From the IMG/VR virus record IMGVR_UViG_3300036829_000026, positions 1 through 29,578 of that record: a DNA stretch of 29,578 bases; one strand, 5' to 3'. The notes below the pieces were generated by a model. That model searched no databases. It was not told the DNA's origin and saw nothing but the letters and a program-made list of their open reading frames with translations. Origin of the DNA: a virus. Made by a program: the position numbers and the translations under genes. Within the stretch, counting starts at the first letter, position 1. Each line of letters starts with the position of its first letter. Shown here one piece after another: positions 418-23,611 of the stretch.

Positions 418-617
418 CGCATGAGCAGGCCCGTATGCTCGAGATGATCCGCCGCCAGCACGGCAAGCTGCGTCGCGTCCCGGCGGAATCGGCGCTCGGC
501 GGTCAGCTGCTCGGCAACTGCGTCTCAGACAGCTACGCCTTTCAGTGCTGCGGCTGCGCGGTCGTGTTCACCGTCGAGCCGGACGGCGGAACGGACGTCT
601 GGGAGCTCGTAGATTAG
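414..617 (+). CDS. Small Cys-containing protein of unknown function
   Basis: This encodes 67 residues from ATG 414, which overlaps the preceding TGA by 3 bases. GGAG at 402-405 lies 8 bases upstream, which favours this start over longer upstream options in the same frame. The N-terminal part is helical and basic (EQARMLEMIRRQHGKLRR). The C-terminal half has a Cys, then a Cys-Cys-x-Cys cluster (NCVSDSYAFQCCGCAVVF), which could bind a metal. No family is recognised. The stop codon TAG 615-617 is the last three bases of a repeated promoter-like element, so the last codons (Leu-Val-Asp-stop) are shared with a regulatory site. Confidence 0.68.
   Translation: MTHEQARMLEMIRRQHGKLRRVPAESALGGQLLGNCVSDSYAFQCCGCAVVFTVEPDGGTDVWELVD
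608..617 (+). promoter_or_regulatory. CGTAGATTAG promoter-like element, copy 1
   Basis: This is one of six copies in the window. The -10-like hexamer TAGATT is 610-615. The element overlaps the end of the upstream gene. Seven bases after the hexamer comes GTG 623, where transcription would be expected to start. No TTGACA-like -35 sequence is seen at the usual distance. It would drive the acidic protein at 652-861. Confidence 0.6.
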
Positions 618-904: not shown

Positions 905-940
905 GCTAACCCCCATTCGCACGATCTAAGGACTGCAATT

Positions 941-950
941 CGTAAATTAG
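941..950 (+). promoter_or_regulatory. CGTAAATTAG promoter-like element, copy 2
   Basis: The hexamer TAAATT is at 943-948, six bases before GTG 955 of the portal gene. The copy differs from the consensus at one base. No usable Shine-Dalgarno sequence lies before GTG 955 (AAGGA at 927-931 is more than 20 bases away), so a leaderless portal mRNA is likely. Confidence 0.62.
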
Positions 951-954
951 GGCC

Positions 955-3066
955 GTGGCGTCCGAGTTGATCCTTCCGCCGGGAGTCGAGGTCGCGGCCA
1001 CGCCGGCGCCGGAGGCGTTCCCGCCGGTCACGGGCCGCGGCGTGATCGTCAACGAAACCGACCTTCCCGACATGGTCGTCGAGACGTACGTCGAGGAGCA
1101 CGCGAGCGTGCTTGGACTGTCGCCGGGGAACAGCTACTCCTACTACGTCGGGCAGGGGTCGCTGCTGGCCCGTCCGAAGTTCCGGCCGCCGACGTCGATC
1201 GTGGAGGAGATCCTCCTTGCCCGCAACCTCGCCGAGCGCGACGACGATGTCGGCGAGACGATCGGCGCGATGGTGGCGCTCGCGTTCGGCGAGGGGATGC
1301 AGCACGTCCACCCCGACGAGGTCGCGGTCGCGATGTGGGACAAGATCGGTCGCAAGGCGAAGATCATCCTCGCGCTGAAGGAGATGTACCGCGAGTACCT
1401 GATCGCCGCGCAGTGCACGACCGCGACGGTGATGAGCCGCGAGACGATCGGCTTCACGCCCCAGGGCGCGGACCGCCAGCGTTCCCGCAGCATCCTGATG
1501 CCGCACATCGGCGTGATCCCGTCAGAGCAGATCCGGGTGATCGGCAACGACCTGTTCGGGACCGCGACGCTCGCCTACCGGCCGTTCTCAGGCCGCCAGG
1601 AGCAGTGGCTGATGCAGTTCTTCAATCCGCGGACGACGGCGGCGCGCAAGGCCGAGATGCGGCGCGAAGATCCGATCCTGACGACGCTGCTGACCGAGCA
1701 GGTGGCGTGGGACGACGTGCGCGAAGGGTCGGTTTCGACCGTGTACGGCGACCCGGGCGACCCAACGATCGGCGCTTACGTGTACACGCTGAACCGCGCC
1801 TACGTCAGCCGGGTGTGCATGCCCAAGGGCCAGTGGCCGCACCCCCGCCCGCTGTTGACCCGCAACTTCCCGTTGCTTGAGGCAAAGCGGCTGCTGTCGA
1901 TCATGGACTACTCGCTGCTCGAGGCCGGCGCGAACTTCCTGGTGGTCGCCAAGAAGGGCTCAGACCAGCGGCCCGCGCTGCCGGAGGAGATCGCCAACCT
2001 GCGCGACACGATCCGCCGCGCGACCCGCTCGGGCGTGATGATCGGCGACCATCGCCTGTCGATCGAGGTCATCACCCCCAACCTCGAGGAGCTGCTGAAC
2101 CCCGCCAAACGGCGGCTGCTTGGCCGCAAGCTCGCGACTGCGATCCTGCGCCTGCCCGACTTCCAGTCTGCCGACGCGGGCTCGGGGCAGTCGGTGCTGA
2201 CCGACACCGAGATCATCGCTCGCGTCGTCGCGTCTGACCGCGAGGATCTGCGGCTGCACGTCGAGGAGGAGATCTATGACCCGATCGCCGACCGCAACGG
2301 CGACAGCCTTGAGGGGCCGCCGACGATCTGGTTCCCGAAGATCATCCTCCAGGGGCTGCAGTACTTCACGCAGCTGATCCTCGGGCTGCGTGACCGCGGC
2401 GACATTCCCCGCCGCTACGCCGTCGAGGCCGCCGGCTTCAACTACCAGGCGGCCGTGCAGCAACGCAAAGCGGAGAAGGCCGCCGGCGACGACCGGGTGC
2501 TCACGCTCCCGGCCGGCGCGGTCCCGTTCTCCGCCGGCGGCGCTGGTGGCGCTGGCGGCCGTCCGTCCGGCTCGGGGCCCAACAACGGCGCGCCCGGCGC
2601 CCGGCCGTCAGACCAGCCCGCGACGGCGCCGAACCGCAACGGCCGTCCGCCCGCGCGCGCCAACGAGGAGGTCCGCGCGATGCTCGACGAGGACTCAGAC
2701 CGGATCTACCGCGCCGGGGAGCGGACCTACGCGATCCTCGAGAGCTACCACGACACCCAGCACGTCGGCCGGATCACCAGCCATGAGCACGCGGCGTTGG
2801 CGCGGATCGAGGAGAACGCGTGCTGCGGCCCTGTCCGCGAAGGGCCGTTTACGGTGCTGCCGGTCAACCCCGGCCACGAGCTGTCAGAGCTGCACGCGAT
2901 CCGGCTGCAGGAGGGCGCGTCGATGATCGTCGGGCGCACCGACTACGGCGCGGTGCTCGCCCGCGCGCTCGTGTTCCGCGAGCCGCGCTACTCGCCGCTG
3001 GAGGCCGAGGAGACGGCGCTGCGGTGGGGCTTTGAGGTCGCGCGCGATGCTGCTGCCGTGGCGTGA
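955..3066 (+). CDS. Portal protein
   Basis: This encodes 703 residues. The portal dodecamer forms the DNA entry vertex of the capsid and docks the terminase and neck. The identification rests on size, on its place before the protease, scaffold and capsid genes, and on a mixed alpha/beta body with a long helical segment rich in RDTIRRATRSG and LEELLNPAKRRLLGRKLATAIL, typical of portal stem and wing regions. Residues about 527-570 form a Gly/Pro/Asn-rich linker. About 130 residues follow it, including a CCGPVREGPF segment, which may be an added C-terminal domain. GTG 955 is chosen because the promoter-like element puts the RNA 5' end there. The last 20 bases overlap the methyltransferase. Terminase should lie upstream of the window. 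Confidence 0.83.
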   Translation: MASELILPPGVEVAATPAPEAFPPVTGRGVIVNETDLPDMVVETYVEEHASVLGLSPGNSYSYYVGQGSLLARPKFRPPTSIVEEILLARNLAERDDDVGETIGAMVALAFGEGMQHVHPDEVAVAMWDKIGRKAKIILALKEMYREYLIAAQCTTATVMSRETIGFTPQGADRQRSRSILMPHIGVIPSEQIRVIGNDLFGTATLAYRPFSGRQEQWLMQFFNPRTTAARKAEMRREDPILTTLLTEQVAWDDVREGSVSTVYGDPGDPTIGAYVYTLNRAYVSRVCMPKGQWPHPRPLLTRNFPLLEAKRLLSIMDYSLLEAGANFLVVAKKGSDQRPALPEEIANLRDTIRRATRSGVMIGDHRLSIEVITPNLEELLNPAKRRLLGRKLATAILRLPDFQSADAGSGQSVLTDTEIIARVVASDREDLRLHVEEEIYDPIADRNGDSLEGPPTIWFPKIILQGLQYFTQLILGLRDRGDIPRRYAVEAAGFNYQAAVQQRKAEKAAGDDRVLTLPAGAVPFSAGGAGGAGGRPSGSGPNNGAPGARPSDQPATAPNRNGRPPARANEEVRAMLDEDSDRIYRAGERTYAILESYHDTQHVGRITSHEHAALARIEENACCGPVREGPFTVLPVNPGHELSELHAIRLQEGASMIVGRTDYGAVLARALVFREPRYSPLEAEETALRWGFEVARDAAAVA

Positions 3067-3601
3067 CGTCGCACTGCGGATCGACGACGAGCGGGAGCCC
3101 GTCATCCACACGTCGCTGACGTCACGCGAAGCGAGAACGCTCGCCGCGCTCGCGGACGGCGGCGTGTGCCTGGAGATCGGCTCGGCGTACGGCTACTCGG
3201 CGATCGTCATCGGGCAGCGCGCCAAGAGCGTGCTGGCGATCGACCCGCACCGGGCGCTGGCCGGGTCGCTGACGGCGATGAAAGACAACCTCGCCGAAGC
3301 GCAGATGGCCGAGAAGGTCGCGATCTGCACGCTGCCGAGCCGGCAGGCGCTGCCGCCGCTGCTCGGACGCGACGTCCGCTACGACCTGGTGTTCGTCGAC
3401 GGCGACCACCACTACGACGAGGTCGCGTTCGATCTTGAGCACGGCTGGAGGCTGGTCAGGCCGGGCGGCAATCTCGCCGTCCACGACTACGGCGAGGACA
3501 CCTGCCGCGACGTGCTGGCCGCCGTGGACGACTTTTATGAGTCGACGCGGCCGCCTCGCACGCGGATTGTCGACACCCTCTGGATCGCGACGCGCTCGTA
3601 G
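3047..3601 (+). CDS. Class I SAM-dependent methyltransferase
   Basis: This encodes 184 residues from ATG 3047, with GAGG at 3034-3037 nine bases upstream; the start lies inside the portal gene. Motif I is CLEIGSAYGYSA (residues 41-52), the acidic residue after strand 2 is in LAIDPH (63-68), and VFVDGDHHYDEVAFDL (115-130) followed by WRLVRPGGNLAVHDYG (134-149) matches the Methyltransf_24 type of Rossmann methyltransferases. These often modify sugars or small molecules, and O-methylation of glycans is common. The substrate cannot be read from sequence. With the glycosyltransferase fragment at the left edge it may belong to a virion or surface glycan modification set. Function class is firm, substrate unknown. 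Confidence 0.86.
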   Translation: MLLPWRDVALRIDDEREPVIHTSLTSREARTLAALADGGVCLEIGSAYGYSAIVIGQRAKSVLAIDPHRALAGSLTAMKDNLAEAQMAEKVAICTLPSRQALPPLLGRDVRYDLVFVDGDHHYDEVAFDLEHGWRLVRPGGNLAVHDYGEDTCRDVLAAVDDFYESTRPPRTRIVDTLWIATRS

Positions 3602-3752: not shown

Positions 3753-3822
3753 GGATTGACCTCCGTACTTCACCCGTCCGGGATTGGACGAGCCCTCGGA
3801 GCCTATTCGTCGTCGCGGCGCT

Positions 3823-3832
3823 CGTAGATTAG
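3823..3832 (+). promoter_or_regulatory. CGTAGATTAG promoter-like element, copy 3
   Basis: The hexamer TAGATT is at 3825-3830, six bases before GTG 3837. The spacing is identical to that at the portal gene. It would drive the capsid operon (small protein, protease and scaffold, decoration, capsid). No -35 element is apparent. Confidence 0.65.
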
Positions 3833-3836
3833 GGGC

Positions 3837-3962
3837 GTGCAGACCGTCGCGATCACGCATCTGCGGGCCGGGACGATCACCGCCCGGGAGAGGCGCTATC
3901 TGCTGTTCGCGTGCTCGGTGAAGTACTACAACCTGCTGCGCGTCGCGACCGTGAGCGGCTGA
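3837..3962 (+). CDS. 41-residue leaderless protein coupled to the protease gene
   Basis: GTG 3837 opens a 41-codon frame, beginning VQTVAITHLRAGTITARERR and ending in LLRVATVSG, with TGA at 3960-3962. The start codon coincides with the expected transcript 5' end from the element at 3823, so no ribosome binding site is needed. Its stop overlaps the ATG of the protease gene by one base (TGATG), a classic stop-restart junction. The protein is basic and has no recognised domain. It may be a real small protein or mainly a translated leader that delivers ribosomes to the protease start, which has no clear Shine-Dalgarno sequence of its own. Confidence 0.5.
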   Translation: MQTVAITHLRAGTITARERRYLLFACSVKYYNLLRVATVSG

Positions 3963-5293
3963 TGGACACCGCGATCGTTTTCGAGCGTGGCGACAAGGTC
4001 TACCTCGTCGGGCCGGTCGCGCCGATCGAACCCAAGCCGAACGAGCTCGAGGAGTTCGCGTTCGCCGACGTGATCCGCGACGAGGCGCCCAGCGAGCTGC
4101 TGCTGTGGCTCCGCGGCCAGTACGTCGAGGCCGACCTCCCCAACCTCAACGGGCAGATCTGGTCGAGCGAGGAGCTTGCGATCAAGAGCCTCAGCCCGAA
4201 GCTGATGCCGGTATCGGTGATGCACAACCCGACGCAGACGGTCGGGCTGATCGCCGACACGCGGCTGCTAACCCCCGACGTAAATCAGGTGCCACGGTCG
4301 CGGATCGACACCGCGTTGGCGGTCTGGAAGCACCGTTATCCCGACGTGTGCGAGGAGGCGGTCTACAACTACCGGCAGGGCACGCTGATGCAGTCAATGG
4401 AATGCCTGCCGAGCTGGTATGAGTGCGTGGAGTGCGGCAAGGCGTTCCCGAAACTCCCGCACGGCGCGGAGGCCGCAAACTGGTGCTCGCATCTGAAAGC
4501 CGGTGCGATCGAAACGGCTGCTGCAATAACGCGCGCCCCTCGTAGATTAGGGGACGTCACGTTCACCGGCACCGGGCTCATCTTCGGGAGCCGGGGTGCT
4601 ACGGGAGCGTTCGAGAAGGCACATCTGGACACGCTCGCCGAGGAAGTCGCCGAGTTCCACGGGCGGGCGCAGACCGAGAAGCCAACGAGGAGAAAGCGCC
4701 GCATGGAAACGATCGAGATCCCCCGCAACGAGTACGACGAGCTGAAGTCCGCGGCCGCCAAGAACGGCGAGCTGACGCAGCGGATCACCGGGCTCGAGGA
4801 GGCGGCGGCGAAGGTGCCCGACCTGGAGAAGCAGGTCGACGAGCTGGAGATCGGCAAGAAGAAGGCCGAGGACGACCTCGCCAGCGAGCGGACCACACGC
4901 GAGGGCCTCGAGGAGCAGGCGCGCGCGCGGGCGCTCTCCTCCGAGCGGCTCGCAAAGCTCGGCGACCCGTTCAAGGCCAAGCTGCCCGACAGCGTCAAGA
5001 CCAGGCTCGAGGAGCAGGCCAAGACGATGTCCGACGAGGACTGGACCGACCGGCTCGAGGAGCTCGCCGCGATGACCGGCGTCAAGCCCGACGAGCAGAG
5101 CGAAGGCGGCCAGGGCTCCGGCAACGGCGGCTCAGACGCCGGCACGTTCACCAGAGAGGAAACCGCCAGAGCGAACCTCGGCGGCGGCAACGGCAGCGGC
5201 GCGCAGGAGCCGTCGCGTGTCGCGGTCAGCACCGTCCTCGGCGGCCTGTTCGAGCAGACCCGTCCACAACGTCGCGAGCCGGCGCAGAAGTAG
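3962..5293 (+). CDS. Capsid maturation protease with C-terminal scaffold domain
   Basis: This encodes 443 residues. The ATG at 3962, one base overlapping the preceding stop, is preferred over in-frame upstream starts because those would lie within the small protein. Residues 1-240 look like a prohead protease: VSVMHNP (His88) and MQSMEC (Ser145) are candidate catalytic residues of the HK97/herpes-type serine fold. A likely zinc site follows: Cys155, Cys158, then Cys175 and His177 (ECVECGK and WCSHL). Residues 248-370 form a long coiled coil and the C-terminus is Gly/Ser/Glu-rich, as in scaffolds. Protease-scaffold fusions with a nested scaffold start are known, as in lambda C/Nu3. The catalytic assignment is inference from motif shape and gene order. 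Confidence 0.75.
   Translation: MDTAIVFERGDKVYLVGPVAPIEPKPNELEEFAFADVIRDEAPSELLLWLRGQYVEADLPNLNGQIWSSEELAIKSLSPKLMPVSVMHNPTQTVGLIADTRLLTPDVNQVPRSRIDTALAVWKHRYPDVCEEAVYNYRQGTLMQSMECLPSWYECVECGKAFPKLPHGAEAANWCSHLKAGAIETAAAITRAPRRLGDVTFTGTGLIFGSRGATGAFEKAHLDTLAEEVAEFHGRAQTEKPTRRKRRMETIEIPRNEYDELKSAAAKNGELTQRITGLEEAAAKVPDLEKQVDELEIGKKKAEDDLASERTTREGLEEQARARALSSERLAKLGDPFKAKLPDSVKTRLEEQAKTMSDEDWTDRLEELAAMTGVKPDEQSEGGQGSGNGGSDAGTFTREETARANLGGGNGSGAQEPSRVAVSTVLGGLFEQTRPQRREPAQK
4541..4550 (+). promoter_or_regulatory. CGTAGATTAG promoter-like element inside the protease gene, copy 4
   Basis: The 10-base element is identical to the consensus and lies in frame within codons Arg-Arg-Leu (CGT AGA TTA) of the protease, residues 194-196. 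AGA and TTA are rare codons in this G/C-rich gene set. The site is 153 bases before the internal scaffold start at 4703, so it could provide a separate scaffold mRNA. No start codon follows at 6-7 bases, unlike copies 1-3. Confidence 0.57.
4703..5293 (+). CDS. Nested capsid scaffold protein (in-frame internal start)
   Basis: ATG 4703 is codon 248 of the protease frame. GAGGAG at 4687-4692 lies 10 bases before it, and the protein sequence changes here from a basic linker (TRRKRR) to METIEIPRNEYDELKSAAAK and then a heptad-rich coiled coil to about residue 120 (LEKQVDELEIGKKKAEDDLA). The product would be 196 residues with an acidic, low-complexity Gly/Ser/Asn tail and a basic end (RPQRREPAQK) that could contact the capsid protein. 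Scaffold made in excess from an internal start is the lambda Nu3 solution. The promoter-like element at 4541 supports independent expression. The coiled-coil character is clear; the internal start is inference. Confidence 0.65.
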   Translation: METIEIPRNEYDELKSAAAKNGELTQRITGLEEAAAKVPDLEKQVDELEIGKKKAEDDLASERTTREGLEEQARARALSSERLAKLGDPFKAKLPDSVKTRLEEQAKTMSDEDWTDRLEELAAMTGVKPDEQSEGGQGSGNGGSDAGTFTREETARANLGGGNGSGAQEPSRVAVSTVLGGLFEQTRPQRREPAQK

Positions 5294-5317: not shown

Positions 5318-5902
5318 ATGCCCAACACGTTCGGCTCCTTCCAGCTAACCACCGTCGCGGCCCTGCCGAACGTCACCGTGGCGTTCCCGGGCGAGCACTG
5401 GTCAGACGGCAAGGCCGGCTCGGCGATCGTTCCCGGCCAGCTGGTGATCCCGTCCGCGTCGGCGATCGTGGCGAGCATGCACCAGCTCACCACCCTGCGG
5501 ACGTGGGTCGTCGCTCCCTCGGGCGCGCTGGACCCGCGGGCGGCCATTGCGCTGCGCACGGTGCAGATCCCCGACACCAACCCCGGGAACATCTACAACG
5601 AGCAGCTGACCCCGAACCAGATCATGAACCGCGTGATTCCAATCGGCGAGTACGTTCACGCGTACCGGTCGGGATCGTTCCACCTGACGCTCATCAAGCC
5701 CGACGCGACCTACCAGCCGGGCGACCTGCTGGGGTGGGATCCCGCCCAGGCCGCGTTGACCGGCAAGCCGGCCGGGTCGGGCGCGTGGGTCAAGACGGGA
5801 ACGGCAGCCAACGCGCTGATGGAGGTCGAGGAATGGCGTCCGCTCACGTCCGATGCCACCCAAGGTGTCCTGACAGCCAGAACCCTGCGCGTGCAGGAAT
5901 AG
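5318..5902 (+). CDS. Capsid decoration or stabilising protein
   Basis: This encodes 194 residues, with GGGAG at 5304-5308 nine bases before ATG 5318. It is mostly predicted beta strands with no Cys. Phrases such as DGKAGSAIVPGQLVI and YQPGDLLGWDPAQAALTGKPAGSGAWVKTG resemble lambda gpD-like and other head decoration folds, where a P-G-x-L/x-V strand and a hydrophobic core are common. Gene order supports this: scaffold, this gene, major capsid protein, as in lambda D-E. It would bind the expanded capsid surface. An alternative is a minor structural cement protein of another fold. Function by position more than by motif. Confidence 0.66.
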   Translation: MPNTFGSFQLTTVAALPNVTVAFPGEHWSDGKAGSAIVPGQLVIPSASAIVASMHQLTTLRTWVVAPSGALDPRAAIALRTVQIPDTNPGNIYNEQLTPNQIMNRVIPIGEYVHAYRSGSFHLTLIKPDATYQPGDLLGWDPAQAALTGKPAGSGAWVKTGTAANALMEVEEWRPLTSDATQGVLTARTLRVQE

Positions 5903-5912
5903 GAGGCAACTG

Positions 5913-6875
5913 ATGGATCCACATGCTTTCGCGCTCCTGCAGCGAGTTCAGGCCGAGCCCGACGCGACCCGTCGCGCCGAGCTGATGGAGGAGTCCGCGA
6001 CCGAGCTCGGCGCGCACTTCCTGCGCCACCACGCCGACCTCGAGGAGCTCGCGTGGGACATGTACAACGTGACCTGGCGCGACGTGCAGGGCGGCTACTG
6101 GTCGACGCCGGGCGCGGAGGACATCGTCCAGACGCTGATCGAGGTCAAGACGGTCGGCAAGGGCGACACCGACTTCATCGAGGAGGACGTCCGCGGGATG
6201 CGCGCGTACTTCCAGGGCAAGGGCGGTCAGATCCGCTCTGACATCCAGCGCGCCGAGCGGCTGACGATGCCGCGCGAGGAGCTGGTCACGGCGATCGACC
6301 TGCACGCCGACGAGATCGAACTGAACTTCTGGGGGACGCTCGCGTCGCTGCAATCCCAGGCGGCCGAGAAGGTCCGCTCAGCCCCGGCGCAGCGGCTGAT
6401 CGACCTGATCATCACCGCGGTCGCGTCCGGCAGCACGTTTCTGACGGCGGCCGCGGCAACGCTCGCCGACACGCAGCTTGACCCGGTGCTCGACGCCGTC
6501 GCGACGAGGTCCGGCGGGATGGCCTCGATCTTCGGGACGCTGTCGGCGGTCCGCAAGCTCGCGAACGTCGGGCTGGACTTCGGCCCGGGGATGCAGGAGC
6601 GGATCTTCCAGTCCGGCACGATCGCGACCTACAAGGGCTACCCGGTGGTGCAGCTCGGCCAGTGGGAGGACTTCGAGGGCCGCAACGTCATGCCCGACTC
6701 GGAGCTGTACATCATCGGCAAGAACGCGGGCCGGCTGACGTGGTACGGCGGGCAGGCCAAGAGCCAGGTGCTGCAGCTGCCGTCGTTCTACAAGCGCTTC
6801 GAGACGGCGCGCGACGTCGGCATGAGCGTCTACGGCGCGGCTAAGGGCCGTGTCGGGCGTGTCGTCCTGACCTGA
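5913..6875 (+). CDS. Major capsid protein, HK97 fold
   Basis: This encodes 320 residues with a canonical AGGAGG at 5901-5906 six bases upstream, the strongest + strand ribosome binding site in the head region, fitting the most abundant protein. The N-terminal 50 residues are helical (an N-arm with ELMEESATELGAHFLRHHADLEELA). The centre contains helices rich in Glu/Arg (RGMRAYFQGKGGQIRSDIQR). The C-terminal part has YKGYPVVQLGQWEDFEGRNV followed by a short Ile-Ile-Gly-Lys-Asn strand, matching the P-domain/A-domain strand order of HK97-type capsid proteins of actinophages. It follows protease, scaffold and decoration genes. High confidence from order, length and motif. Confidence 0.88.
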   Translation: MDPHAFALLQRVQAEPDATRRAELMEESATELGAHFLRHHADLEELAWDMYNVTWRDVQGGYWSTPGAEDIVQTLIEVKTVGKGDTDFIEEDVRGMRAYFQGKGGQIRSDIQRAERLTMPREELVTAIDLHADEIELNFWGTLASLQSQAAEKVRSAPAQRLIDLIITAVASGSTFLTAAAATLADTQLDPVLDAVATRSGGMASIFGTLSAVRKLANVGLDFGPGMQERIFQSGTIATYKGYPVVQLGQWEDFEGRNVMPDSELYIIGKNAGRLTWYGGQAKSQVLQLPSFYKRFETARDVGMSVYGAAKGRVGRVVLT

Positions 6876-7224: not shown

Positions 7225-7318
7225 CCGCGGGGCGTGTCCGATCTGCGGCAAGCGACTGCTAGCCGCGTGCTGGACCGTCTGCTGCCTGGGTCCGAGAATT
7301 CGACGGTCAGGCTCGTAG
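7187..7318 (+). CDS. Possible 43-residue Cys-rich zinc-knuckle microprotein
   Basis: ATG 7187 has GAGGG at 7177-7181 five bases upstream and overlaps the end of the preceding gene in another frame. The product contains ACPICGKRLLAACWTVCC, with a C-P-x-C-G knuckle typical of small zinc ribbons plus four further Cys within 15 residues. It ends within the promoter-like element at 7314. A competing frame, GTG 7234 to TAG 7321-7323, would give 29 residues ending Leu-Val-Asp at the same element; it has only a weak upstream G-run. Codon third-position G/C is about 70 percent in both frames, lower than in neighbouring genes, so neither is secure. Confidence 0.36.
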   Translation: MGTSSTAAGCPASRGACPICGKRLLAACWTVCCLGPRIRRSGS

Positions 7319-7323
7319 ATTAG
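7314..7323 (+). promoter_or_regulatory. CGTAGATTAG promoter-like element, copy 5
   Basis: The hexamer TAGATT is at 7316-7321. No start codon follows at 6-7 bases; the next gene starts at 7355 behind a GGAGG, so this copy would give an mRNA with a short leader of about 27 bases. It would drive the connector and collagen-like fibre genes. Confidence 0.6.
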
Positions 7324-8278: not shown

Positions 8279-9865
8279 ATGCCCGCGACGTTCCCGCCCG
8301 AGGCAACCGCGATCGGGCCGTCCGGACCGATCGGACCGGCGGGGCCAGCGGGACCGTCCGGGCCAGTCGGCGGCCCGGGCCCTCGCCGCCAGCTGTTCAC
8401 CGACGACTACTACCCCGAGGTGGACGTCGAGGGCGCGCAGCTCGGCGACCTGTTCCTCTGCACGCAGGACGGGTCGATGTGGGAGCTCGTGTCGATCGAC
8501 CTGGACGGCACCCAGCAATGGCAGACGGTCGGCAACCTGATGGGGCCGCCGGGACCGGCGGGACCGGCGGGCGCCCCGGGCCCCGGGTTCAATTTCAAGG
8601 GCGTGCTCGCCAGCACCGACGACCTGCCGGCCGCGAGCAAGTCAAAGCTGGCGGACGCGTACATGGTCGGCGACTACCTGTGGGTCTTTGACGGGATCCA
8701 ATGGGTCGACGGCGGCGACATTCAGGGGCCGCCGGGAGCGATGGGCGTGCAGGGCCCGCCGGGGTCGATGGGCGTCCAAGGTCCGCAGGGACCGCAGGGT
8801 GACCCTGGCGTGCAGGGACCGCAGGGCGACCCTGGCCCGCAGGGCGAGGTCGGCCCGGTCAACGCGACTCCCGGCCCGGAAGGGCCTCCCGGCGAGCCGG
8901 GCCCGCAGGGTCCGCAAGGGCCGCAGGGCGATCTCGGGTCGCAGGGGCCAGCCGGTCCGCAAGGGTCGCAGGGTGACCTTGGGCCGCAGGGTCCGCAGGG
9001 TGACGTCGGCTCGCAGGGCGATCTTGGGCCGCAGGGGCCGGACGGGCTGCAGGGCCCCAAGGGCGACCAGGGCGACCCGGGACCGCAAGGGATTCAGGGG
9101 CCCGTAGGTTTGCAAGGCCCCTCGGGCACCGGCGAGGCCGGCGACCAGGGCCCCGCTGGGCCGCAGGGCGACCCGGGGCCGCAGGGTCCGGCCGGGCCGG
9201 CGGGACCCCAGGGCTCGCAGGGAACGAAGGGCGACCCGGGCGACCCGGGGCCGCAGGGAGCGTCCGGACTGGCCGGCGCCGATTCGACCGTCCCCGGACC
9301 TCCCGGCGCGCAAGGCGTGCAAGGCGCCGCCGGACCCAAGGGCGACACCGGCGTGCCGGGCGCGCAGGGGGCGCAGGGCAACCAGGGTTCGGCAGGGCCG
9401 CAGGGACCGCAGGGCGCGCAGGGCGCGACCGGCTCGCAGGGACTGGCCGGGCCGGCGGGATCGCAGGGCGCGCAGGGCGTGCAAGGCCCGCAGGGGCCGA
9501 TGCCCGTCGTGCAGGACGAGGGCACCGCGCGCACGCAGCGCGCCGCGATGAACTTCACCGGCGCGGGCGTCACCGCCACCGACGATTCCGTCAACAACCG
9601 CACCAACGTCAGCATCCCCGGCGACCTCGGCGGCTCGAGCTCGGTGGCGTTCACGACCGGCGCCAACACGTCGAGCACGGCCACGATCACCCACAACCGC
9701 GGTCAGACTGGCTATGCGGTCGTGGTCACGCCGACGACGATGCCTGCGAGCGCCGCGACGCTCGTGGTGCTGAACAAGACCGCGACTACATTCCAGGTTC
9801 AGGGCTTCCTTACCACCAAGGCGGCGCTGACGATGAACTTCGACTGGCAGCTGACCGGCCCGTGA
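8279..9865 (+). CDS. Collagen-like fibre protein
   Basis: This encodes 528 residues. Gly-X-Y repeats occur at residues 13-35, 89-103 and, as a long run with brief breaks, 150-407; Pro-Gln-Gly and Pro-Ala-Gly dominate. Two small globular modules sit between them: residues 36-88 ([20 protein letters not shown]) and 104-147 ([20 protein letters not shown] then [12 protein letters not shown]), the second a module often seen beside collagen repeats in phage fibres. The C-terminal 121 residues are a beta-rich trimerisation or tip domain. The protein should trimerise into a rod. It lies between connector and head-closure genes, suggesting a neck or head fibre rather than a tail tip fibre. The next gene starts in its stop codon (GTGA). 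Confidence 0.85.
8726..9499 (+). repeat. Main Gly-X-Y repeat tract of the fibre gene
   Basis: About 86 consecutive triplets encode collagen-type Gly-X-Y, with breaks such as GPVNATPG and GADSTVPG. At DNA level this gives many near-repeats of GGNCCGCAGGGN type, so the tract is a likely site for slippage and length variation. Confidence 0.85.
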
Positions 9866-11873: not shown

Positions 11874-11903
11874 ACGCGCCCTGCGGCACTCCTGACCAGC
11901 GTT

Positions 11904-11913
11904 CGTAGATTAG
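11904..11913 (+). promoter_or_regulatory. CGTAGATTAG promoter-like element, copy 6
   Basis: The hexamer TAGATT is at 11906-11911, in a 68-base gap between tail completion and tail tube genes. Predicted start of RNA is near 11918, giving a leader of about 25 bases that contains a small hairpin (CCAGC, 3-base loop, GCTGG). It would drive the tail operon and is the last exact copy in the window. Confidence 0.6.
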
Positions 11914-21099: not shown

Positions 21100-22344
21100 A
21101 TGGCGCGCCTGCGTTACAACAATGCGCTGGGCACGCTCGGCGCGTCGCTCGGCTCGAACGTGGGCGACACCACGATCACGTTCGCGTCGGCTCCCGCGTT
21201 CGCGACGATCACCGGCAGCGACTACATCCCGCTTGTGCTGGACCCTCCCTCCGGGTCGTCGCCCAACGCCAGCTTCGAGATCGTCTACCTGACCGCCTAC
21301 ACAGCAGGTCAGACCACCGGGACGATCACGCGCGGGCAGGAGGGCACCTCCAGGGTGGCGCACTCCAACGGGGCGGTGTGGCTGTGCGCGTCGACCGCGA
21401 CGAGCGAGGCGGCGGTCGATGTAAAGACGTTCACCTCGACCTCCTCGACCAACTGGATCAAGCCCGCCGGGTGCACGATGGTCGAAGTGGTGCTGTACGG
21501 CGCTGGCGGCGGCGCTGGCGGCGGCTATAACCAGCCCGGTACCGGCGGCGGGTCCGGAGCAGGAGGTGGTGGCGGCGCGTGCACTCGTCAGAGGTTCCGC
21601 GCTTCCGATCTTCCGGGCACCGTCGCTGTCATTTGCGGCACGGGTGGCACTGGCGGCGGTCCAGCCGTGTCCAATGCTTCCACTGGAACTACAGGTGGTG
21701 CGTCTACGTTCGGCAGTTACGCCGCTGCGGGTGGGGGCGGTGGCGGGCAGGGCGGATCTAACAGCGGCAGTCCTACCGGCGGCAGCGGCGGAGGGCAGAA
21801 CGCAAATGGCACGATCAGCGCTGGCACCGCCATCGCGGGCGGCGGCAACCCCATCGGCACCGCGAAGGACGGCATCGGCGGCGCTGGCGGCGGTGCCTCC
21901 CCTGGCGGCAATGGCAACAATGCCGAGTACGGTGGCGGCGGTGGCGGCGGAGCACCGTCCAGCGGATCGCCCGGCGGCAACAGCATTTACGGCGGTGGCG
22001 GCGGTGGCGGCGCGGGTGGCTTCAGCGGTGCTGGTACAGCTCAGGCCGGAGCCGCAGGAGGAGCGACCGGCAACCAGATCGCCTTCGCTGGAGTGGGCGG
22101 TGTCGCCGGGACGGCAGGCGTAGGCGTGACCGGTACGGCAGGCGGGAACGGCACCGATGGCACTAGCCTGTACGGCGGCTCGGGCGGCGGCGGCGCGGGA
22201 GCACACAGCACGAGCGGCGGTTCCAACGGCGGCGCGGGCGGCGCGGGCGGTGGCGGCGGCGGAGGCGGCGGGGCATCAAGCGGCGGTACTGCCGGAACCG
22301 GCGGCAAGGGCGGCGACGGCCGCGTGTACGTGTACGCCTGGTGA
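21100..22344 (+). CDS. Glycine-rich tail fibre/adhesin, paralog 1
   Basis: This encodes 414 residues from ATG 21100, with GGGAG at 21084-21088 upstream. The N-terminal 110 residues form a conserved beta module (LGSNVGDTTITF, then IVYLTAY and TRGQEGTSRVAHSNGA) used as a tail-attachment module in many phage fibres. Next comes a short link (WIKPAGCTMVEVVLYGAGGG) and then about 265 residues of Gly-rich sequence, with Gly runs divided by short Ser/Thr/Ala/Asn segments, ending in GGKGGDGRVYVYAW. The Gly-rich layout recalls polyglycine type II sandwich adhesins such as gp38 of Salmonella phage S16, which bind receptors. It is nearly matched by the gene that follows. Receptor binding is inference. 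Confidence 0.78.
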   Translation: MARLRYNNALGTLGASLGSNVGDTTITFASAPAFATITGSDYIPLVLDPPSGSSPNASFEIVYLTAYTAGQTTGTITRGQEGTSRVAHSNGAVWLCASTATSEAAVDVKTFTSTSSTNWIKPAGCTMVEVVLYGAGGGAGGGYNQPGTGGGSGAGGGGGACTRQRFRASDLPGTVAVICGTGGTGGGPAVSNASTGTTGGASTFGSYAAAGGGGGGQGGSNSGSPTGGSGGGQNANGTISAGTAIAGGGNPIGTAKDGIGGAGGGASPGGNGNNAEYGGGGGGGAPSSGSPGGNSIYGGGGGGGAGGFSGAGTAQAGAAGGATGNQIAFAGVGGVAGTAGVGVTGTAGGNGTDGTSLYGGSGGGGAGAHSTSGGSNGGAGGAGGGGGGGGGASSGGTAGTGGKGGDGRVYVYAW

Positions 22345-22348
22345 GGCC

Positions 22349-23611
22349 GTGAGCAGGCTGCGGTATAACGATGCGCTGGGCACGCTCGGCGCGCCGCTCG
22401 GCTCGAACGTGGGCGACACCACGATCACGTTCCAGTCCGCGCCCAGCTTCAGCACCATCGTCGCGCCCGACTACATTCCGCTCGTTGTGGACCCACCTTC
22501 GGGACCGTCGCCCAACGCCAGCTTCGAGATCGTCTACCTGACTGCCTACGCGGCAGGTGCGACCACGGGAACGATCACGCGCGGGCAGGAGGGAACGTCC
22601 AGGGTCGCGCACTCCAACGGGGCGGTGTGGCTGTGCGGGCGGACCGCGACGAGCGAGGCGACGGTGGACGTGCAGACGTTCACCGCGACTGGCGCGGGTG
22701 CCACCTGGACCAAGCCGGCGGGCTGCACGATGGTCGAGGTCGTGCTGTATGGCGCGGGCGGCGGTGGTGGTAGTGGTAACGGCTCTGGCAATGCTGGTGG
22801 TGGAAGCGGGGGCGGTGGCGGCGGTGGAGGAGCTTGTACCCGGCAGCGATTCCGTGCGTCAGATCTGCCGGGGACTGTCACAGTAACTTGTGGCGCAGGG
22901 GGCACTGGTCCCGCGGGTACCACTGGTAGCAATGGAACTGCTGGGTCAGCTGGTACCGCTTCTACGTTTGGTACACATGCGGCAGCCGGTGGGGGTGGCG
23001 GCGGTGGTCCGGGTTCTGGAGGTGGGTATATCACTGGTGGTGCCGGAGGAAGTAGCGCTGCAAATGGGATAACAGGTAGTGGTACTGCAGCAATTTCCGG
23101 AGCCGGTAACCCGATTGGCGTAGGCAAGGATGGAGTTGGTAATTCGGGTGGGGGCGCTACAGCGAATGTCACAGCAGGTGGGAATGCTGAATATGGTGGT
23201 GGCGGCGGCGGATCTGGTGGGACTGCTGGCGTTGGCCTCGGGGTCGGTGGTAGCAGCGTTTACGGTGGTGGCGGAGGTGGGGGTGCTGGGGGAATCAGTG
23301 GTGGAGGCACAGCTGCTAATGGCGCTGCAGGAGGCGCAACTGGTAACCAGATCGGGTTCACTGGCGTTGGTGGTGTAAAAGGTACTGGTGGTGTCCAACT
23401 TGGTGGTGTTGGCGGTCCTGGCACGGATGGTACGAGCTTGTATGGCGGCTCTGGCGGCGGTGGCGGTGCTTCTACTACTTCTACGCCTGGCGGTGCTGGC
23501 GGTGCTGGCGGTGCAGGTGGAGGCGGCGGTGGTGGAGGAGGGTCGGCTTTTGGCACGGGTGGCGCTGGCGGCAAGGGCGGCGACGGCCGCGTCTACGTGT
23601 TCGCCTGGTAA
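22349..23611 (+). CDS. Glycine-rich tail fibre/adhesin, paralog 2
   Basis: This encodes 420 residues from GTG 22349, chosen because VSRLRYNDALGTLG aligns with MARLRYNNALGTLG of the upstream paralog; the ribosome binding site is poor (GAGG two bases away). The first 125 residues and the last 15 (GGKGGDGRVYVFAW) are nearly identical to paralog 1, even at DNA level. The Gly-rich centre differs: it uses many GGT and GGA codons and TA-rich stretches, against mainly GGC in paralog 1. That pattern suggests recombination of a foreign central segment between conserved ends. The two adhesins may have different receptor specificity. Both stop within 10 bases of the next start. Confidence 0.77.
   Translation: MSRLRYNDALGTLGAPLGSNVGDTTITFQSAPSFSTIVAPDYIPLVVDPPSGPSPNASFEIVYLTAYAAGATTGTITRGQEGTSRVAHSNGAVWLCGRTATSEATVDVQTFTATGAGATWTKPAGCTMVEVVLYGAGGGGGSGNGSGNAGGGSGGGGGGGGACTRQRFRASDLPGTVTVTCGAGGTGPAGTTGSNGTAGSAGTASTFGTHAAAGGGGGGGPGSGGGYITGGAGGSSAANGITGSGTAAISGAGNPIGVGKDGVGNSGGGATANVTAGGNAEYGGGGGGSGGTAGVGLGVGGSSVYGGGGGGGAGGISGGGTAANGAAGGATGNQIGFTGVGGVKGTGGVQLGGVGGPGTDGTSLYGGSGGGGGASTTSTPGGAGGAGGAGGGGGGGGGSAFGTGGAGGKGGDGRVYVFAW

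Follow-up and report, generated by a model that had tools for sequence, protein, structure and literature searches.

Scaffold and capsid proteins are required in far greater numbers than the protease that is fused to them. In lambda, the scaffold Nu3 is encoded in frame within the protease gene C, possesses its own ribosome binding site and is made by internal translation; to our knowledge, the phage precedents consist either of internal translation, as in lambda, or of separate genes. Herpesviruses meet the imbalance between scaffold and protease by a promoter within the protease gene. The UL26.5 promoter of HSV-1 lies within the UL26 coding region, and UL26.5 is a 3′-coterminal scaffold gene nested in frame (PMC2949831; PMC4498786). 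Late promoters of T4, in turn, present a -10-like box with no conservation at -35, and are read by the phage protein gp55 (PMC7892883).

Organization of the protease-scaffold locus

The window, that is, the whole stretch of DNA analysed here, is a fragment measuring 29.6 kb that comes from a virus record in IMG/VR, has a GC content of 68% and carries a head and tail gene module. Features whose coordinates are given with two dots, as in 3962..5293, lie on the + strand. The full-length head maturation protease-scaffold ORF (3962..5293) encodes 443 aa and joins an N-terminal protease to a C-terminal scaffold in a single frame. The protease domain (3962..4702) contains the candidate catalytic residues His88 (4223-4225) and Ser145 (4394-4396), both of which are invariant among relatives. 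The N-terminal part resembles head maturation proteases, with phrog_18299 being matched by 7 of the 28 members of the family at E values down to 4.6e-6, and a long helix, predicted as a coiled coil, spans residues 255-332 in the C-terminal part. An AlphaFold model of the ORF has a mean pLDDT of 71. A fold search of the PDB with this model gave only weak matches, none with E below 0.001: T4 gp21 was the best (E 0.014), followed by herpesvirus proteases (S21 type), including that of HCMV (E 0.065). The significant matches of the model in BFVD include annotated prohead proteases. The protease domain also holds an invariant C155-x2-C158-x16-C175-x-H177 pattern (4424-4492), which is like a zinc site.

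The nested scaffold ORF (4703..5293) runs from ATG 4703 through codon 5290, giving 196 residues, and is preceded by the Shine-Dalgarno (SD) sequence GAGGAG (4687..4692). A decoration-like gene (5318..5902), named from gene order and conserved in position, is the first gene past the scaffold, and is followed by the major capsid gene (5913..6875; phrog_2522 major head protein, E 1.4e-6). On the other side, the portal-position gene (955..3066, 703 aa) was assigned from gene order, with no family match. Between it and the protease lies a SAM-dependent methyltransferase gene (3050-3601; Methyltransf_24, E 1.6e-18).

The locus is like UL26/UL26.5 of herpesviruses in that a protease-scaffold ORF contains an in-frame nested scaffold start, and a promoter within the protease gene is predicted here as well. 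It differs in belonging to a bacterial virus, in that the proposed promoter is a 9-base sigma-type box rather than an RNA polymerase II promoter, and in that the phage transcript is predicted to extend into the major capsid gene. The internal ribosome binding site and in-frame start are shared with lambda C/Nu3; whereas lambda makes its scaffold by internal translation, the phages here also conserve a promoter-like DNA element ahead of this start.

Some 40 contigs related to the window, which belongs to a group of uncultured bacterial viruses, were identified. Single-sequence searches recovered only a near-identical contig, and the other relatives needed alignments; a three-sequence alignment retrieved 36 loci on viral contigs and one on an Actinomycetota MAG contig. 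Because the peptides used in the viral search, MPV[TS]VMH and GTLMQSM, do not overlap the element, the set is unbiased for it, two members of the alignment-retrieved set having first been met through a motif search. Exact-motif scans of the viral collection returned mostly chance matches, and the only kin recognised in the first scan were L010, L038, L040 and the near-identical L004. Clustering at 95% protein identity reduced the 35 sequences that reach the site, the window included, to 30 clusters. The proteins of the relatives are 39-55% identical to that of the window.

GX15bay is the only cultured phage that matched, and it did so weakly. It has a separate gene for its scaffold-like protein, the 16.8 kb of it that were examined contain no copy of the motif, and it gave no match to the sigma profile described below. 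The GX15bay 'portal protein' (L005 4375-6357; MK557849.1 25301-27283) reads as a head maturation protease, with an intein-like insert directly before the catalytic-serine motif (SMETV).

Recurrence, orientation and spacing of the element

Six copies of a short element are present in the window, all on the same strand (+). The 11-mer TCGTAGATTAG starts at 607, 3822, 4540, 7313 and 11903, and the variant TCGTAAATTAG at 940. The exact 9-mer core CGTAGATTA occurs five times against 0.002 expected under a trinucleotide model. For the 15-mer CTCGTAGATTAGGGG, two exact copies and six with at most three mismatches were counted, all on the + strand, against a shuffle mean of 0.26. The recurrence of the element in the window is not due to chance.

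The copies differ in their relation to the neighbouring genes. The one at 607..617 contains the TAG at which the upstream ORF terminates. The variant copy (940..950) ends 5 nt before GTG 955 of the portal-position gene, which would make this gene leaderless, and the copy upstream of the protease (3822..3832) likewise lies 5 nt before GTG 3837, the start of a possible leaderless ORF of 41 aa (3837..3962), noted by eye, ending in a TGA that shares bases with the protease ATG (TGATG). The copy at 7313..7323 is upstream of ORF 7355, whose ATG is preceded by an SD sequence (ctggagg), and the motif scan located another (11903..11913) upstream of ORFs 11939 and 12218. The remaining copy (4540..4550) is embedded in the protease-scaffold ORF. 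In a relative, the copy at 6624 of L040 also includes the stop codon of the upstream gene, in a different frame from that at 607.

The middle base of the motif is free across the group, and the 9-mer is hence written CGTANATTA, with a preference for T before and GG after it. In 493 kb from 32 loci, all 123 occurrences are on the gene strand and none is on the opposite one; the reversed-pattern control gave no occurrence either. In all 14 whole records searched, the copies are confined to one strand. Each record has 2-9 copies, clustered in the structural module. At 90 distinct sites other than the internal one, 43 ORFs of 60 aa or more start 5-7 nt past the motif against 3.9 expected; the start rate is at background from 10 to 28 nt and rises a second time at 29-34 nt (19 against 7.8). 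No clear conserved -35 was seen at the 90 sites, only a weak increase in AT content around -17 to -14. Were RNA to start 5-8 nt past the motif, genes would be either leaderless or far enough away to accommodate an SD sequence, which matches the observed offsets.

The sigma factor and the reading of the element

Each of the 13 records that exceed 60 kb encodes a conserved ECF-like sigma factor. The protein is about 190-220 aa in length, with region 2 and a region-4-like helix-turn-helix (HTH). Sigma70_r2 matches all eight aligned members scanned, and region 4 or LuxR-type models match the C-terminal HTH of several members, the region 4 match being weak. SigH and CnrH are the best solved relatives of the profile, and the fold matches of the model are also sigma factors. 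No match to this sigma was found in the fragmentary record of the window itself, nor in 50,697 cultured-phage records (tblastn, E 0.01). A search for a T7-type RNA polymerase gave no match, but no control matched either. A tyrosine recombinase is present in all 11 long relatives tested; in G010 (45742-48009) and 10 other long relatives, the sigma gene is followed by the recombinase gene close by on the opposite strand.

Like ECF (group IV) sigma factors, this protein would have regions 2 and 4 only, within about 200 aa, given the weak region 4 match. Region 4 of a sigma factor normally reads the -35 element, and the CGTA of the motif is similar to the -10 found in certain ECF promoters. Unlike in the ECF case, the sites carry no second, conserved -35 box, and the sigma gene is phage-borne, beside a tyrosine recombinase. 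The combination of a phage-encoded sigma with a -10-like box and no conserved -35 is like that of the T4 late system. However, T4 gp55 is devoid of region 4, whereas the C-terminus of the present sigma factor bears an additional HTH that resembles this region; the box differs too, being CGTANATTA with starts that are leaderless.

We consider it highly probable that CGTANATTA is a late promoter of the phage, and that the copy embedded in the protease frame drives transcription of the scaffold, decoration and capsid genes. Together with the flanking T and GG, it would constitute the single-box promoter of a late, structural-gene regulon, and its reader would most likely be the host RNA polymerase together with the phage's own ECF-like sigma factor; this pairing is proposed from co-occurrence, and the sigma factor could serve other promoters. 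Speaking against this reading are the lack of a conserved -35 for the weak region-4-like HTH to recognise and the absence of a sigma match in the fragmentary record of the window. No description of the motif was noticed in the open-access literature searched. It is also probable, with less certainty, that these viruses represent an undescribed phage group with an ECF-like sigma and a -10-only, largely leaderless late promoter, one copy of which, in the protease frame, would be the counterpart of the UL26.5 promoter. The motif and the sigma could serve as a ready late-gene marker for uncultured phages.

It is conceivable, but in our view unlikely, that a host sigma factor, instead of the phage one, recognises the element as a promoter, given that TANATT fits the TANNNT of an ordinary -10 box and is placed at the right distance from leaderless starts. 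Nevertheless, the motif exceeds a bare -10, and it is CGTANATTA as a whole that shows the complete strand bias. Moreover, most copies belong to the structural module: of the 56 copies counted outside the protease gene in 11 long records, 52 are no more than 19 kb away from that gene. This limit was picked after looking, and the zone it defines covers 47% of the genome on average. The occurrence of the sigma gene in every long relative also argues for the phage-encoded reader.

Far less probable is an oriented repressor site that blocks transcription in lysogens, like the stoperators of cluster A mycobacteriophages, which are short and asymmetric, follow the direction of transcription and occupy small intergenic gaps close to gene boundaries (PMC9283540). 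The tyrosine recombinase in all the long relatives tested leaves room for lysogeny and repressor sites. But stoperators are 13-mers at more than 20 genome-wide sites, so that the sites here differ from them in count, location, spacing and composition, and both the fixed spacing of 5-7 nt to start codons and the -10-like AT core better fit a promoter.

A signal acting in RNA, for processing or translation, is very improbable. TTAGG is faintly SD-like where it stands 5-7 nt before a start codon, but the element is also found 29-45 nt before genes that have an SD sequence of their own and 150-198 nt before the nested start. Given such varied offsets, the element has no fixed relation to translation.

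The copy inside the protease frame

Inside the protease-scaffold ORF, CGTAGATTA occupies 4541-4549 and is read as codons 194-196, CGT AGA TTA (Arg-Arg-Leu), as (4541-3962)/3 = 193. This in-frame reading had been put forward in the first-pass annotation, together with the GAGGAG, an ATG placed 153 bases past the element and a product of 196 residues, and all its coordinates proved correct. Its statement that AGA and TTA are rare also holds, since they account for 10 of 538 Arg codons and 3 of 685 Leu codons, respectively, in 26 window genes.

The in-frame CGT-N-TTA is kept in all 35 sequences that cover the site. Among the 30 clusters, CGT and TTA are each found in 30, and the middle codon is ATA in 28, AGA in one and ACA in one. 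The AGA codon itself is thus not conserved: the middle residue is Ile in most sequences, Arg in the window and Thr in two (L077 and L242), whereas no variation was seen at Arg194 or Leu196. Changes in the middle codon are confined to the motif's degenerate base, which in this alignment is the base that the protein can set. In G020, most other copies carry C at this base and the internal copy carries T. Elsewhere in the protease-scaffold gene, TTA makes up 5 of 891 Leu codons (0.6%) and ATA 18 of 357 Ile codons. Of 249 columns tested for codon bias, the three of the element rank first to third, followed in fourth place by the Arg column whose AGG provides the nested SD sequence; as the binomial scores assume independent sequences, more trust is due to the ranks than to the p values. 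The nested start (ATG or GTG) with its SD sequence is kept 150-198 nt past the element in 30 of 30 relatives. A larger alignment, used in a subsequent search, brought in five further contigs, one with a GC content of 48%; each has both the element and the nested start.

Selection for the DNA element, which had been suggested from codon choice in the window, is well supported by this comparison: no relative spells the same residues with other codons, the five later contigs included. Two explanations at the level of the protein are both hardly credible. In one of them, the rare codons ATA-TTA, which sit at the end of the protease domain, would aid folding by slowing the ribosome as it passes from protease to scaffold; we reject it, because the same 9-mer also stands in non-coding positions, spans stop codons and falls in different frames (window 607, L040 6624), indicating that the string is conserved and not its codon reading. 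In the other, Arg-Ile-Leu alone would be constrained and the codons inherited by chance; the invariance of Arg194 and Leu196 agrees with this, but codons are scrambled at other conserved Leu and Arg columns (the modal codon share is 0.37-0.64 at other conserved Leu columns), and the middle residue varies where the DNA motif does not, so that protein constraint is rejected as the sole cause unless codon drift elsewhere has been misjudged.

A late promoter therefore remains our preferred reading of the internal copy. With the scaffold and the protease in one frame, there is no intergenic space for a capsid promoter, and it must be spelled in codons; the proposed spelling is CGT-NNA-TTA. RNA would start about 5-8 nt past the element, at 4555..4558 in the window by analogy with the start-codon offsets of the leaderless sites, giving a leader of roughly 145-190 nt before the SD sequence and the in-frame ATG. 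The internal transcript would yield scaffold without protease, would also omit the portal, and would run on through the decoration-like and major capsid genes. In none of the 28 relatives where both could be placed does a further copy separate the internal element from the major capsid gene, which would make the internal site the capsid-proximal promoter. The predicted outcome is many scaffolds and capsid proteins per protease.

We infer a separate transcription from the strand bias, the leaderless spacing to starts elsewhere and the phage sigma in every long relative. The earlier proposal of separate scaffold transcription is supported to this extent, but the predicted transcript comprises scaffold, decoration and major capsid genes and not the scaffold alone. 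Its further claim, of an arrangement beyond the lambda C/Nu3 style, stands in that a promoter-like element is present in addition to nested translation; this is not without precedent, as the UL26.5 promoter within UL26 illustrates. If the reading is right, tailed phages possess a transcriptional solution to the imbalance, kept across proteins as diverged as those compared here, and the element would be a clean case of a single DNA string under two codes.

Two observations concern the window further downstream. A collagen-like protein with Gly-X-Y repeats is encoded at 8279-9865, and two adjoining similar glycine-rich proteins are encoded at 21100-22344 and 22157-23611, an apparent duplication.
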